DNA of 64,000 nt from Cellulomonas wangsupingiae (GTDB lineage Bacteria > Actinomycetota > Actinomycetes > Actinomycetales > Cellulomonadaceae), in the NCBI RefSeq assembly GCF_024508275.1, contig NZ_CP101989.1, forward strand, positions 1,736,001 through 1,800,000, read 5' to 3'. Of the stretch, positions 20,634-25,807 are shown one piece after another; within the stretch, counting starts at the first letter, position 1, and each line of letters opens with the position of its first letter. A program made the translations under genes and the position numbers. The notes beneath the pieces are model-generated. The model had not been told where the DNA came from. It worked only from the letters and a program-made list of their open reading frames with translations, and did no database searches.

Positions 20634-21901
20634 GCGCCGGGTCGCCCGTCCGGCCCCGCACGGCACCGACCCGCGCCGTGACCCCGCCCGGGGGCACGCC
20701 CGAGGTCCGCGAGCCCTCGCTGCTGGGCACCTGGAACTCGGCGGTCACCAGCTACTACGTGCTGCTCGGAGCGACGCTCCTGCTGGTCGCGATCGGGCTG
20801 GTCATGGTGCTGTCGAGCTCGAGCGTCGAGTCGCTGGCCGCGGGCAAGTCCCCGTACGCGGTGTTCTTCGACCAGACGCGGTACGCCCTCGTGGGCCTGC
20901 CGGCGCTCGTGGTGATGTCACGCCTGCCGGTGCGCGTGCTCAAGGCCCTCGCCTGGCCGGCGCTGGCGGGCGCCATCGCCTTCCAGATGCTCGTCTTCGT
21001 CCCGGGCCTGGGCTGCGGCGCCGGTGGCAACCGCAACTGGGTGTGCCTGCCCGGCTTCTCCGCCCAGCCCTCCGAGGCCGTCAAGCTGGCGCTCGCGATC
21101 TGGCTCGGCGCCGTCCTGGCGCGCAAGCTGCGGCTGCTGCACGAGTGGAAGCACGCCCTGGTCCCCGCGGTGCCCGTGGCCGGCGTCGCCATCGGCGTCG
21201 TCCTGCTGGGCAAGGACCTGGGCACGGCGATGGTCCTGGTCGTGCTCGTCGCCGGGGCCATGTTCGTGGCGGGGGTGCCGCTGCGGATCTTCGCGGTCGC
21301 GGGCGCCGTCGCCGCCGCGGGGGTCGCCCTGCTGGCGATCGACAGCGAGAACCGGATGACACGCATCACGGCGTGGCTGTCGGCGGAGTGCGACGTCACG
21401 AACGAGTGCTACCAGACGCTGCACGCCGGCTGGGGCCTGGCGACGGGCGGGTGGAGCGGCGTCGGGCTGGGGCAGAGCGCCGAGAAGTGGTCGTACCTGC
21501 CGGCGGCCCACAACGACTTCATCTACGCGATCCTGGGGGAGGAGCTCGGCTTCGTGGGCACGGTGCTCGTGCTCGCGCTGTTCGCGCTCCTCGCGTTCGC
21601 GATGATCCGCATCATGCGCCGCCACCCGGACCCGTTCGTCAAGATCGCCACGGCGGCGGTGTTCGCCTGGGTGATCGGCCAGGCGATGATCAACATCGCC
21701 GTCGTCATCGGGCTGCTGCCCGTCATCGGTGTCCCGCTGCCGCTCGTCTCCGCCGGAGGATCCGCACTCATCATGACCATGGCCGCGCTCGGCATGCTGC
21801 TCGCCTTCGCCCGGACCGAGCCGGGGGCCGCCGAGGCGCTGTCCGCGCGCGCCTCGGTCGTGCGCCGCTCGCTCGCCGTGATCGGGCGCACCCGTGGCTG
21901 A
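20630..21901 (+). CDS. ftsW: Septal peptidoglycan polymerase FtsW
   Basis: 423 residues, a SEDS-family glycosyltransferase that polymerises lipid II at the septum together with FtsI. About ten transmembrane helices start near residue 42. SEDS landmarks are NWVCLPGFSAQPSEAVKLAL, LLGKDLGTAMV, PAAHNDFIYAILGEELGF and PLVSAGGSALI. The N-terminal 35 residues are Pro/Thr-rich and cytoplasmic. The GTG start overlaps murD and the end overlaps the murG-murC gene by 8 nt. Confidence 0.95.
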   Translation: MSAGSPVRPRTAPTRAVTPPGGTPEVREPSLLGTWNSAVTSYYVLLGATLLLVAIGLVMVLSSSSVESLAAGKSPYAVFFDQTRYALVGLPALVVMSRLPVRVLKALAWPALAGAIAFQMLVFVPGLGCGAGGNRNWVCLPGFSAQPSEAVKLALAIWLGAVLARKLRLLHEWKHALVPAVPVAGVAIGVVLLGKDLGTAMVLVVLVAGAMFVAGVPLRIFAVAGAVAAAGVALLAIDSENRMTRITAWLSAECDVTNECYQTLHAGWGLATGGWSGVGLGQSAEKWSYLPAAHNDFIYAILGEELGFVGTVLVLALFALLAFAMIRIMRRHPDPFVKIATAAVFAWVIGQAMINIAVVIGLLPVIGVPLPLVSAGGSALIMTMAALGMLLAFARTEPGAAEALSARASVVRRSLAVIGRTRG

Positions 21902-24590
21902 CGCGACCTCGGTGCTCCTCGCGGGCGGCGGCACGGCCGGCCACGTGAACCCGCTGCTGGCCGTCGCCGACGAGCTGCGTCGTCGTCACCCGCGCGGCAG
22001 GTTCGCGGTGCTCGGCACCGCCGAGGGCCTCGAGGCCCGGCTCGTCCCCGAGCACGGCTACGACCTGGCCGTCGTCCCGCGCGTCCCGCTGCCACGGCGC
22101 CCCACGCCCGACTGGTTGCGCCTGCCGGGTCGCCTGCGCGCCGCCGTGCGTGCCGCGGAGGAGGCGATCGACGCCATCGACGCGCAGGTCGTCGTGGGCT
22201 TCGGCGGCTACGTCGCCACACCCGCGTACCTCGCCGCCCGCCGCCGTGGCGTGCCCGTCGTGGTGCACGAGCAGAACGCGCGCCCCGGCCTGGCCAACCG
22301 GCTGGGAGCCCGGCACGCCGCTGCCGTCGCCGTGACGTTCGAGGGGACGGCGCTGCCGAGGGCCCAGGTCACCGGGCTGCCCCTGCGCACCGCCGTGCTC
22401 GACCTGCTCGCCGCACGTGCGGCGGACCCCGCGGCCGCACGCCGCGCGGGCGCCGCGGCGCTGGACCTCGACCCGGACCTCCCGACGCTGCTGGTGACGG
22501 GCGGCTCGCTGGGAGCCGTCAGCGTCAACCGTGCCGTCGCTGGGGCTGCCGACGCGCTGCTGGCGACCGGCGCCCAGGTGCTGCACCTGACCGGCCGGGG
22601 CAAGGCGGACGACGTGCGCGCCGCCGTCGCCGGCGTGCCGGGTGCGGACCGCTACCACGTCGTGGAGTACCTGACGGCGATGGACCGTGCGCTCGCGGTC
22701 GCGGACGTCGTCGTGGGCCGCTCCGGGGCGGGCACGGTCTGCGAGCTGGCCGCGCTGGGCATCCCCGCCGTCTACGTGCCGCTGCCGATCGGCAACGGCG
22801 AGCAGCGGCTGAACGCCGCGGGCGTCGTGGCGGCGGGCGGTGGCGTCCTCGTCGAGGACCGCGACCTCACGCCCGAGTGGGTCCGCGCCCACGTGCCCGT
22901 GCTCCTCGGCACGGGCGACGCCGCCGAGGTCCGTGCGCGCATGGGCGAGGCGGCGGCGCGCGTCGGTGTGCGCGACGGCGCGGCCCGCGTCGCGCGGCTC
23001 GTCGAGGCGCAGCTGCCCGTGCACGTGCGGGCCTCCGCCGCTGCGCGCAGGCCCGCACCGGCGCACGCGGCTGCGGTGGCGGACCCGGGCGAGCGCGGTC
23101 CCGTCGCGCTGGCCGACCTGGGGCGCGTCCACCTGGTGGGCGTCGGCGGGGCCGGGATGTCGGCGATCGCGCCGCTGCTCGCCGCGCGCGGTCTGCGGGT
23201 CAGCGGCTCCGACGCGCACGACGGCGCGGCCCTCGGACCGCTGCGGGACGCGGGTGTCGAGGTCCACGTCGGGCACGACGCGGCCCACGTCGAGGACGTC
23301 GACACGCTCGTCGTGTCGTCGGCCGTGCGGGCGTCCAACCCCGAGGTCGTCCGTGCGCGCGAGCGCGACGTGCCGGTGCTGCACCGCTCGGAGGCGCTCG
23401 CGGCGCTCATGGCCGACCGCGACGCCGTCGCGGTCGCCGGCGCCCACGGCAAGACCACGACGTCCGGCATGATCGCGGCCGCGCTGGTCCACGCCGGCGC
23501 CGACCCGTCCTTCGCCATCGGCGGCGTCGTGCGCGCGACCGCGGGCACCCTCGGCGGGTCCCGGCACGGCGACGGGCCGTTCGTCGCCGAGGCCGACGAG
23601 TCCGACGGGTCGTTCCTGGCGTACGAGCCGCTCGTGGCCGTCGTCACGAACGTCGAGCCCGACCACCTGGACCACTACGGCACGCGCGAGCGGTTCGAGG
23701 CGGCATTCGAGCGCTTCGCCGACCGCGTGCGCGACGGCGGGCTGCTCGTCGCGTGCTCCGACGACCCCGGTGCGGCGCGGCTCGTCGCCGCGACGCGCGC
23801 CCGCCTCGCGGAGCGCGGGGTCGAGGTGCGCACCTACGGCACCGGCGAGGACGCGGACGTGCGCGTCGGTGACAGCGTCCGCACGCCCGACGGGCGCTGG
23901 CAGGTCGACCTGACGCCGCGCGACGAGCCGCCGGTCACGCTGCGGCTGCAGGTGGCGGGGGCGCACAACGCGCTCGACGCGGCGGCCGCCTGGTGCGCGC
24001 TGCGCCGGCTCGGTGTGGGCGCGTCGCAGGCGGCGGCCGGGCTCGACGACTTCGTGGGGACGGGACGCCGCTTCGAGGACCGTGGCACCGCGGGAGGCGT
24101 CCGGGTCGTCGACGACTACGCGCACCACCCGACGGAGGTCGCCGCGCTGCTGCGGGCCGCACGCCAGGTCGCGGGGGAGGGGCGTGTGCTCGTGCTGTTC
24201 CAGCCGCACCTCTTCTCGCGGACCCGCACGTTCGCGCGCGAGTTCGGCGAGGCCTTCGACCTCGCGGACGCGGTCGTCGTCACCGACGTGTACGCGGCGC
24301 GCGAGGACCCGGACCCGACGGTCACCGGGGCCTTGGTGGCCGACCTGGTCCCCACCCCGGGCAAGGCCGTCCACGTGCCAGGGCGCGAGGAGGCGGCGCG
24401 CGCCGTCGCCGCGCTCGCGCGGCCGGGCGACCTGCTGCTCACCGTCGGGGCCGGTGACGTGACCGAGCTCGCGCCCGTCGTGCTCGCGGAGCTCACGGCA
24501 CGTGCGGACGCGTCGGCCCCCGCCGGCGCCCACGACGCGACGGGCGGCACGCCGCCCGTCACCGGGACCGCCGGCGGTGCGCTGCCGTGA
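21894..24590 (+). CDS. murG-murC: MurG-MurC fusion: lipid II synthase plus UDP-MurNAc--L-alanine ligase
   Basis: One uninterrupted frame of 898 residues encodes two wall enzymes. Residues 1-375 are MurG, which adds GlcNAc to lipid I: GGGTAGHVNP (11-20), VHEQNARPG, VTGGSLGA and GRSGAGTVCELAALGIP. Residues about 376-404 are an Ala/Pro/Arg linker. Residues about 405-898 are MurC, which adds L-Ala to UDP-MurNAc: GVGGAGMS (416-423), ATP loop GAHGKTTT (516-523), NVEPDHLDHYG and VDDYAHHPTEV. All catalytic motifs of both halves are intact. The order matches the murG-murC order of normal clusters, so the fusion arose by loss of the stop/start junction. An in-frame GTG in the linker has no good RBS. 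Confidence 0.95.
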   Translation: MADATSVLLAGGGTAGHVNPLLAVADELRRRHPRGRFAVLGTAEGLEARLVPEHGYDLAVVPRVPLPRRPTPDWLRLPGRLRAAVRAAEEAIDAIDAQVVVGFGGYVATPAYLAARRRGVPVVVHEQNARPGLANRLGARHAAAVAVTFEGTALPRAQVTGLPLRTAVLDLLAARAADPAAARRAGAAALDLDPDLPTLLVTGGSLGAVSVNRAVAGAADALLATGAQVLHLTGRGKADDVRAAVAGVPGADRYHVVEYLTAMDRALAVADVVVGRSGAGTVCELAALGIPAVYVPLPIGNGEQRLNAAGVVAAGGGVLVEDRDLTPEWVRAHVPVLLGTGDAAEVRARMGEAAARVGVRDGAARVARLVEAQLPVHVRASAAARRPAPAHAAAVADPGERGPVALADLGRVHLVGVGGAGMSAIAPLLAARGLRVSGSDAHDGAALGPLRDAGVEVHVGHDAAHVEDVDTLVVSSAVRASNPEVVRARERDVPVLHRSEALAALMADRDAVAVAGAHGKTTTSGMIAAALVHAGADPSFAIGGVVRATAGTLGGSRHGDGPFVAEADESDGSFLAYEPLVAVVTNVEPDHLDHYGTRERFEAAFERFADRVRDGGLLVACSDDPGAARLVAATRARLAERGVEVRTYGTGEDADVRVGDSVRTPDGRWQVDLTPRDEPPVTLRLQVAGAHNALDAAAAWCALRRLGVGASQAAAGLDDFVGTGRRFEDRGTAGGVRVVDDYAHHPTEVAALLRAARQVAGEGRVLVLFQPHLFSRTRTFAREFGEAFDLADAVVVTDVYAAREDPDPTVTGALVADLVPTPGKAVHVPGREEAARAVAALARPGDLLLTVGAGDVTELAPVVLAELTARADASAPAGAHDATGGTPPVTGTAGGALP

Positions 24591-25807
24591 GCCCGCAGCG
24601 TCCGCCGGCACCGCGCCCGGGACGCCCGTCGCCCACCGCGCGCCCTGCACCACCCCGTCGCGCGGCCCCGCGACGCCCCGCGCCGACGGACGACGCGACA
24701 CCCGGCGCGGCGCCCGCCGACGAGGTCGGTCCCGACGCGCGGACGTCGGCCGGTCAGCGGGGGTCGGCCGGGCAGCGTCCTGCCCGGCCCGCACGCTCCG
24801 GTGCGGCGCCGACGGGTCCGGCGCCGGAGGCCGGGACCCCGCGGGCCGGTGGCCGCGGCCGTGCGGCCGGTGGCTCGCGGACCGCCCCGACGGGCACGAG
24901 GAAGGCCGCGACGGGCTCGACGCCCGCGACGGGATCGACGCCGGCGACCGGCCCGACGCCCGCGACGGGCCCGACCCCGGGCGCGACGCCCGCGACCGGC
25001 CCGACGCGGACGGTCACGACGTACACCGTGGGCCGGTTCTCCGGGCCCGTGCGCCCGGCGGTGGTGTCCACGACGTCCCGCGAGCGGTTCGCCGAGCGTG
25101 CGCGGGCGCGGCGCAACCTCGCGCGCCGTCAGGTCGTGGCGGTCGTCGCCGGGGTGCTCGTCACCGGTGCCCTGGGCTGGCTGCTGCTGCTCTCTCCCGT
25201 CCTCGCGCTGGACCCGGGCGAGGTCGAGGTGACCGGCGCGGGGACGGTCGTGGCCGTCGACCAGGTGCTGGCGGTCGCCGCGGAGCAGGCCGGCACGCCC
25301 CTCCCGCGCCTCGACACGGTCGAGCTGCGTGACCGGGTGCTCGAGGTGCCGGGCGTGCGTGAGGCGCGCGTCGTGCGCGAGTGGCCGCACGGTCTGGCCG
25401 TGCAGCTCGTGTCGCGCGAGCCGGTCGCCGCCGTGCCGGAGGAGGCGCCGGCCGCGGGGCTCGTGCTGCTCGACGAGCAGGGCGTCCAGGTGGGCCGCGC
25501 AGACGTGGCACCGCCCGGGCTGCCCGTGGTCGACGTCCCGGTCGGTGACGAGCGGACGCTGTCGGCGGTGCTGCGGGTCCTCGAGCAGCTGCCCGCGGAC
25601 CTCCTGGCGCAGGTGGAGTCCGTGGCGGCGCAGACCCAGGACACGGTGACGATGCGGCTGCGGGACGGCGGCCCGCAGATCGAGTGGGGGAGCGCCGACG
25701 AGACACCGCTGAAGATCGCCGTCCTCACGGCGCTGCGAGCGGCGCCCGCCGCGGCCGACGCGACCGTCCTGGACGTGTCCGCGCCGCGGATGCCGGTGAC
25801 GCGCTGA
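24587..25807 (+). CDS. ftsQ: Cell division protein FtsQ
   Basis: 406 residues, longer than usual because of a cytoplasmic N-terminus of about 180 residues rich in Pro, Ala, Arg and Thr. Within it, residues 109-140 repeat TG(S/P)TPA. One TM helix follows (about 182-207), then the POTRA domain (about 208-280, VEVTGAGTVVAVDQVL, VREWPHGLAVQLVSREPVA) and the FtsQ beta domain. FtsQ links FtsL and late divisome proteins. GTG overlaps the murC stop (GTGA). Confidence 0.92.
   Translation: MSPQRPPAPRPGRPSPTARPAPPRRAAPRRPAPTDDATPGAAPADEVGPDARTSAGQRGSAGQRPARPARSGAAPTGPAPEAGTPRAGGRGRAAGGSRTAPTGTRKAATGSTPATGSTPATGPTPATGPTPGATPATGPTRTVTTYTVGRFSGPVRPAVVSTTSRERFAERARARRNLARRQVVAVVAGVLVTGALGWLLLLSPVLALDPGEVEVTGAGTVVAVDQVLAVAAEQAGTPLPRLDTVELRDRVLEVPGVREARVVREWPHGLAVQLVSREPVAAVPEEAPAAGLVLLDEQGVQVGRADVAPPGLPVVDVPVGDERTLSAVLRVLEQLPADLLAQVESVAAQTQDTVTMRLRDGGPQIEWGSADETPLKIAVLTALRAAPAAADATVLDVSAPRMPVTR
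24911..25006 (+). repeat. 18-bp tandem repeat inside ftsQ
   Basis: About five copies of an 18-bp unit (type ACGGGCTCGACGCCCGCG) at 24911, 24929, 24947, 24965 (expanded to 30 bp) and 24995 (partial). They encode TG(S/P)TPA hexapeptides in the cytoplasmic tail of FtsQ. Copy number could vary between strains without breaking the frame. Confidence 0.8.

Follow-up and report, generated by a model that had tools for sequence, protein, structure and literature searches.

The murG-murC fusion gene of Cellulomonas wangsupingiae and its apparently repeated formation from overlapping genes

The locus described here raises the question of whether MurG and MurC, respectively a late and an early enzyme of cell-wall synthesis, are encoded by one gene and, if so, by which route such a gene came into being and of what use it may be. 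It lies in a 64,000-nucleotide stretch of the Cellulomonas wangsupingiae genome (contig NZ_CP101989.1, positions 1,736,001 to 1,800,000 of the forward strand), which at its full length is called the window. The gene occupies positions 21894..24590 of the plus strand and consists of 898 codons and a TGA, its translation giving 898 residues and then the terminal stop. Judged by its sequence, it is an intact gene for a bifunctional MurG-MurC protein, and related species seem, from the comparison of their sequences, to have fused murG to murC many separate times. The gene itself, its making from overlapping genes and its repeated origin, taken jointly, form a reading to which a probability of about 0.7 may be given.

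The MurG part comprises residues 1-372 (21894..23009, plus strand), and the murG model TIGR01133 matches residues 5-369 with 247.1 bits against an NCBIfam cut-off of 250.25 (249.9 bits at the genome level). Both family-28 glycosyltransferase domains, PF03033 and PF04101, are present in this half. The MurC part (residues 406-877, 23109..24524, plus strand) is matched by TIGR01082 on residues 412-862 with 443.4 bits, which is above the NCBIfam cut-off of 335.1, and it contains PF01225, PF08245 and PF02875; all five Pfam domains lie above their gathering scores in the fusion protein. The motifs GGGTAGHVNP, HEQN, GGSLGA and GAGTVCELA, which we take to be diagnostic of MurG, stand in columns that are mostly invariant among 30 aligned fusions, and GAHGKTTT, EADESDGSF, DHLDHY and DDYAHHPTE, presumably diagnostic of MurC, stand in columns that are invariant or nearly so. 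A solved MurC structure was matched by both sequence and fold, and a solved MurG structure by fold (Foldseek). The two parts are joined by a linker rich in Ala, Pro and Arg (residues 373-405, 23010..23108, plus strand), which has low to middling model confidence, and the MurC part is followed by a C-terminal tail (residues 878-898, 24525..24587, plus strand) with a predicted local distance difference test (pLDDT) value below 50. An earlier note on this DNA had proposed that MurG and MurC are truly fused and that both retain their diagnostic motifs, and the single 898-residue frame, the NCBIfam and Pfam domains and the near-invariant motif columns bear this out. The Ala/Pro/Arg composition of the linker described there also holds, its length being 33 residues by the present boundaries and not about 29.

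The genome, a single contig of 4,118,098 bases, contains the whole fusion frame at one place. Neither a second MurC copy nor a second MurG copy was found in this genome, the next best matches reaching 76 bits for the MurC family and 20.5 bits for MurG-like proteins. Profile searches of 14 fused genomes likewise found no second copies of murG or murC. The MurC cut-off was exceeded at one place only in all 14, and in each of them one MurG place lay far above the other MurG-like matches, with 11 of the 14 passing the MurG cut-off.

The occurrence of the fusion among relatives was determined by searches of 81 Cellulomonas genomes and 221 genomes of the family, and 108 loci were classified by script, 50 of them as fused and 58 as separate. 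In a frame check, the stretch running from the MurG domain through the whole of the MurC domain was free of stops in all 50 fused loci; the initial matches had been flagged "1 TGA" inside some loci, including G045, one of 11 close relatives of the window. A sequencing or assembly artefact, in which a stop had been deleted, was rejected because 49 further loci of the family, from independent genomes, carry the same fusion, as do database proteins of several origins, and its probability may be regarded as negligible. UniRef labels several close entries "Multifunctional fusion". The 11 relatives, which share 86-91% identity and carry the same fusion, speak against an overlooked stop or frameshift at 23020-23110, which the earlier note had raised, and separate genes in all close relatives, also considered there, is false, since the other 11 rows of the window's 12-row clade are fused.

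Within Cellulomonas, 47 of the 72 decidable genomes were fused and 25 separate, nine being undecided. Loci with runs of N over the linker region (L073, L074) were left out before counting, as were genomes of the genus with no match, with fragments or with halves on different contigs (G002, G007, G023, G032, G035, G056, G076). The six loci fetched from the sister genus, with G106 left out, were divided equally into three fused and three separate. The genes were separate in 30 of 30 rows fetched from other genera of the family, a sample drawn from the listed MurC matches of 133 genomes in which near relatives are over-represented. A search of 396 genomes of the order gave 150 MurG matches among those listed (counted by hand), of which 130 were outside the family, and every listed match with a frame of at least 750 amino acids that was not already in hand was fetched (n = 43). 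Among these matches two were fused, L122 (101-2563), which lies outside the family of Cellulomonas, and L123 (273-2789), whose best matches carry the name Buchananella. From 149 genomes of the phylum, 17 loci with frames of at least 771 amino acids were fetched from the listed matches, frames of 765 and 769 amino acids being left out, and among them L151 was fused and L160 was cut by a contig end. Outside the family, long open frames were mostly wrong as a sign of fusion (fused in 2 of 43 in the order and 1 of 17 in the phylum). Longer fusions, suggested by open frames of 1,000-1,500 amino acids, were also rejected, as ftsW and murG were fused in none of the 108 loci, all of which had a match to FtsW.

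The separate pairs point to the route by which the genes may have been joined. In all 58 of them the murG TGA overlaps the RTG start of murC, by 4 nucleotides (RTGA) in 55 and by 8 nucleotides in three, and the type of overlap is alike in the genus and in the outgroups. The murC frame lies one base back relative to murG in 55 of the 58 pairs and is open upstream of the murG stop over a median of 616 nucleotides, with at least 60 nucleotides in 56 pairs. Because the stop overlaps the start and the murC frame is open behind it, a one-base slip can join the two genes. Native murC starts in separate pairs have a median Shine-Dalgarno energy of -8.5 kcal/mol, against a background of -2.7 kcal/mol. 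When fused and separate relatives were aligned in six sets, the tail of murG and the head of murC proved conserved, with a spacer of varied length between them, and the Val376 codon of the window (GTG, 23019..23021, plus strand) aligns by eye with the murC start of separate relatives. To judge from these relatives, the ancestral murC start was most likely an RTG overlapping the murG TGA by 4 nucleotides, one frame back. Given the geometry observed, a net +1 or -2 insertion or deletion near the overlap could have produced the full fusion in one step. In the fused lineages the ribosome would then read through and the old murC start would decay, making MurC dependent on the fusion; this dependence follows for four loci whose linkers contain no start codon and would presumably extend to the others. 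The locus may be seen as an instance of overlapping genes merging, in G+C-rich genomes, through an apparent small slip.

On a quick tree of MurG and MurC with 108 rows, the fused or separate state changes at least nine times, seven changes being forced by the starred branches alone, and a mixture-model tree also gave nine. The placement of all 50 fused rows in one clade was rejected (difference in log likelihood 563, p = 7.8e-83 in the approximately unbiased test). If fusion is treated as irreversible, 13 gains are required on either tree. The two trees agreed in the nine changes and the 13 irreversible gains and differed in some groupings, and after re-rooting on four outgroup rows the 78 in-group rows formed one clade.

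Several points weigh against the reading of an intact fusion that was formed repeatedly from overlapping genes. The chief weakness of the tree is its derivation from MurG and MurC themselves, and murG and murC are apart in 25 of the 72 decidable Cellulomonas genomes. The linkers show little conservation of either sequence or length, in 13 of the 50 fused loci a GTG of the linker reaches a Shine-Dalgarno energy of -6.3 kcal/mol or lower, and the model of the window protein sets no fixed arrangement of MurG and MurC (predicted template modelling score 0.59). The present data consist of sequences and models. At equal costs, a fused root takes 10 changes and a separate root nine, and with a difference of one change counting alone leaves room for splits. 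A single early fusion, followed by many splits back to two genes, would agree with this small difference and with the separate rows L039 and L041, which are nested in a group with four further rows, all of them fused. The separate pairs of the genus, however, keep the 4-nucleotide RTGA overlap and the frame of the outgroups (55 of 58 in all), and this likeness of the junction favours fusions over splits. The genes are separate in all 30 rows that represent other genera of the family, and when a split is costed at twice a fusion, the separate root takes 12 against 18 or 16. The early single fusion is an unlikely course of events, and repeated fusion is the reading retained here.

An open frame may still yield two proteins, and the earlier note had left room for an internal start at a linker GTG. 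Three such GTGs are indeed present in the window, and the best internal start candidate of the window fusion, the Val376 codon, has an energy of -5.9 kcal/mol and falls short, in strength, of three quarters of the native murC starts. The value of -6.3 kcal/mol is the 75th percentile mark of these native starts; the window fusion is not among the 13 loci that reach it, and in those 13 the good linker candidates make some extra free MurC possible. The view that MurC is mostly produced as a separate protein despite the open frame, by an internal start or by cutting, draws on these 13 loci and on the GTGs of the window. It meets, however, with the weakness of the window's top candidate and with four of the 50 fused loci (L011, L018, L023, L080) in which ATG, GTG and TTG are all absent from the segment between the MurG end and the RVH of MurC, so that MurC must there be made together with MurG; a start later than the linker would be expected to cut into the first fold element of MurC. 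Mostly separate production of MurC is accordingly improbable, and by the evidence of the sequences internal starts are not a general source of MurC in fused species.

The linkers range from 8 to 134 amino acids and are in frame in all 50 fused loci. In 14 close pairs, which overlap and hence are not independent, substitutions at codon positions 1, 2 and 3 numbered 57, 65 and 138, and the codon changes comprised 106 nonsynonymous and 97 synonymous ones in 750 codons, which is the pattern expected at the sequence level for a translated, weakly constrained segment. In all 12 rows L001-L012 the peptide DPGERGPV is kept before the MurC domain and the middle of the linker varies. In another fused clade of 12 rows (L059-L061, L063-L068, L070-L072) the linkers are 66-134 amino acids long, and in nine of these (L059-L061, L063-L068) they contain 33-42% Ala and much Glu and Arg.

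AlphaFold2 predicts two confident domains for the window protein (mean pLDDT 89.7), with linker blocks from 53 to 86. In P0099, a relative with the long Ala/Glu/Arg linker type, one helix is predicted for residues 375-443 (69 residues), continuing from the MurG end and followed by about 50 residues with pLDDT below 50. A helix rises 1.5 Å per residue, and the linker helix of P0099 would thus be about 10 nm long. According to these models, the halves are predicted to be joined by a flexible tether, which in one clade is partly helical.

What the joining may bring to the cell is a separate matter. MurC and MurG do not catalyse consecutive steps, and therefore channelling is unlikely. The most probable use would be a fixed 1:1 ratio of MurG to MurC together with the anchoring of MurC, which acts first among the ligases, where MurG sits on the membrane; that this use is real is possible but rather uncertain. 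The analysis suggests that joining the two enzymes is at least tolerated and perhaps useful. It may tentatively be proposed that selection, and not chance alone, fused murG to murC 9-13 times in Cellulomonas and the sister genus, and no fewer than three further times in other parts of the phylum, since a MurC kept at the membrane by a flexible arm, or by a helical arm of about 10 nm as in one clade, would improve the precursor flow to the site of lipid II formation.

The main rival to such a use is a neutral ratchet, in which G+C-rich overlapping genes slip harmlessly into one frame and the decay of the murC start and its ribosome site blocks the return, so that a benefit of tethering is not needed. 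The one-step geometry of the separate pairs is consistent with it, as are the wide variation and fast change of the linkers (the 106 nonsynonymous against 97 synonymous changes in overlapping pairs given above) and the coexistence of fused and separate states within the genus. The neighbouring murC-ftsQ junction speaks on the other side. Its geometry is similar, with the 4-nucleotide RTGA in 86 of 96 cases and a frame open at least 60 nucleotides back in 93 of 96, yet no murC-ftsQ fusion was found in 97 loci, so that geometry alone fails to explain the number of murG-murC fusions. A murC-ftsQ fusion flagged by the script in L108 was rejected, as a stop lies between the genes. At the ftsW-murG junction, where the geometry differs (a 4-nucleotide overlap in 4 of 107), no fusion was found in 108 loci. 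The control is imperfect, since FtsQ and FtsW are both membrane proteins, to which a fusion may simply be harmful. The ratchet accordingly keeps a substantial chance of being correct, if somewhat short of even odds.

Whether the cytoplasmic Mur enzymes form one membrane-held complex is an open question, which has also been raised to explain why Mur inhibitors active in vitro seldom block growth (PMC4929429). A genus in which the same enzymes occur both joined and as separate proteins, with linkers of several designs and a similar neighbouring junction left unfused, offers a natural experiment on such a Mur complex.

The fusion sits in the dcw (division and cell wall) cluster, with mraY and murD upstream, then ftsW, the fusion, ftsQ and ftsZ; ftsW in the window was identified from its sequence. 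The start of the fusion overlaps the end of ftsW by 8 nucleotides (21894..21901, plus strand), and its stop overlaps the start of ftsQ by the 4 nucleotides GTGA (24587..24590, plus strand). With both ends of the fusion still overlapping their neighbours, the inner junction alone has been lost. The frame measures 902 codons from stop to stop, and the true start can therefore lie at most a few codons further upstream. The FtsQ of the window (24587-25807) has a long N-terminal tail rich in Pro, Ala and Thr, with TPATG-like repeats. On the opposite strand, an open frame of 1007 codons (21771-24794, minus strand) spans the entire fusion and is probably just a consequence of the high G+C content.

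For the comparison with known systems, the species abbreviated as "C. gilvus" is taken by us to be Cellulomonas gilvus. A murG/murC fusion was named in "C. gilvus" by Laddomada et al. (2016, PMC4929429), and such a fusion is mentioned again in PMC6420597; in a Frankia paper that uses the term "MurG-MurC" (PMC7231273), an operon is concerned and not a fusion. The earlier note had known of no characterised MurG-MurC fusion. Biochemical characterisation of such a protein was indeed not found in the open-licence literature, most subscription journals being outside that scope, but the fusion itself was already in print. It is thus not new to print, and what is new here is the count of state changes, the overlap geometry, the unfused flanking junctions, the survey of linkers and the clade with a predicted helical linker. 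Like the window, "C. gilvus" has the same adjacent dcw genes fused in an actinomycete, and the available passages of PMC4929429 give the existence of the fusion only, with no count, phylogeny, linker types, junction mechanism or activity. The "K. flavida" ftsW/murG fusion, reported in the same source, joins a neighbouring dcw junction, also in an actinomycete, one that was fused in none of the 108 loci here. In the MurE-MurF protein of Bordetella pertussis, as described in PMC6420597, two Mur enzymes also share one polypeptide, in which about 20 residues serve as linker; the protein is active and binds MurG, which is proposed there as a scaffold for other Mur enzymes. MurE and MurF act in consecutive steps, for which channelling is conceivable, whereas MurG and MurC do not. 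The MurB/C of Verrucomicrobium spinosum and the MurC-Ddl of Chlamydia (PMC4803751) likewise have MurC fused to a wall enzyme, although with other partners and in other phyla, and in MurB/C, where MurC is N-terminal, the MurC part complements by itself.

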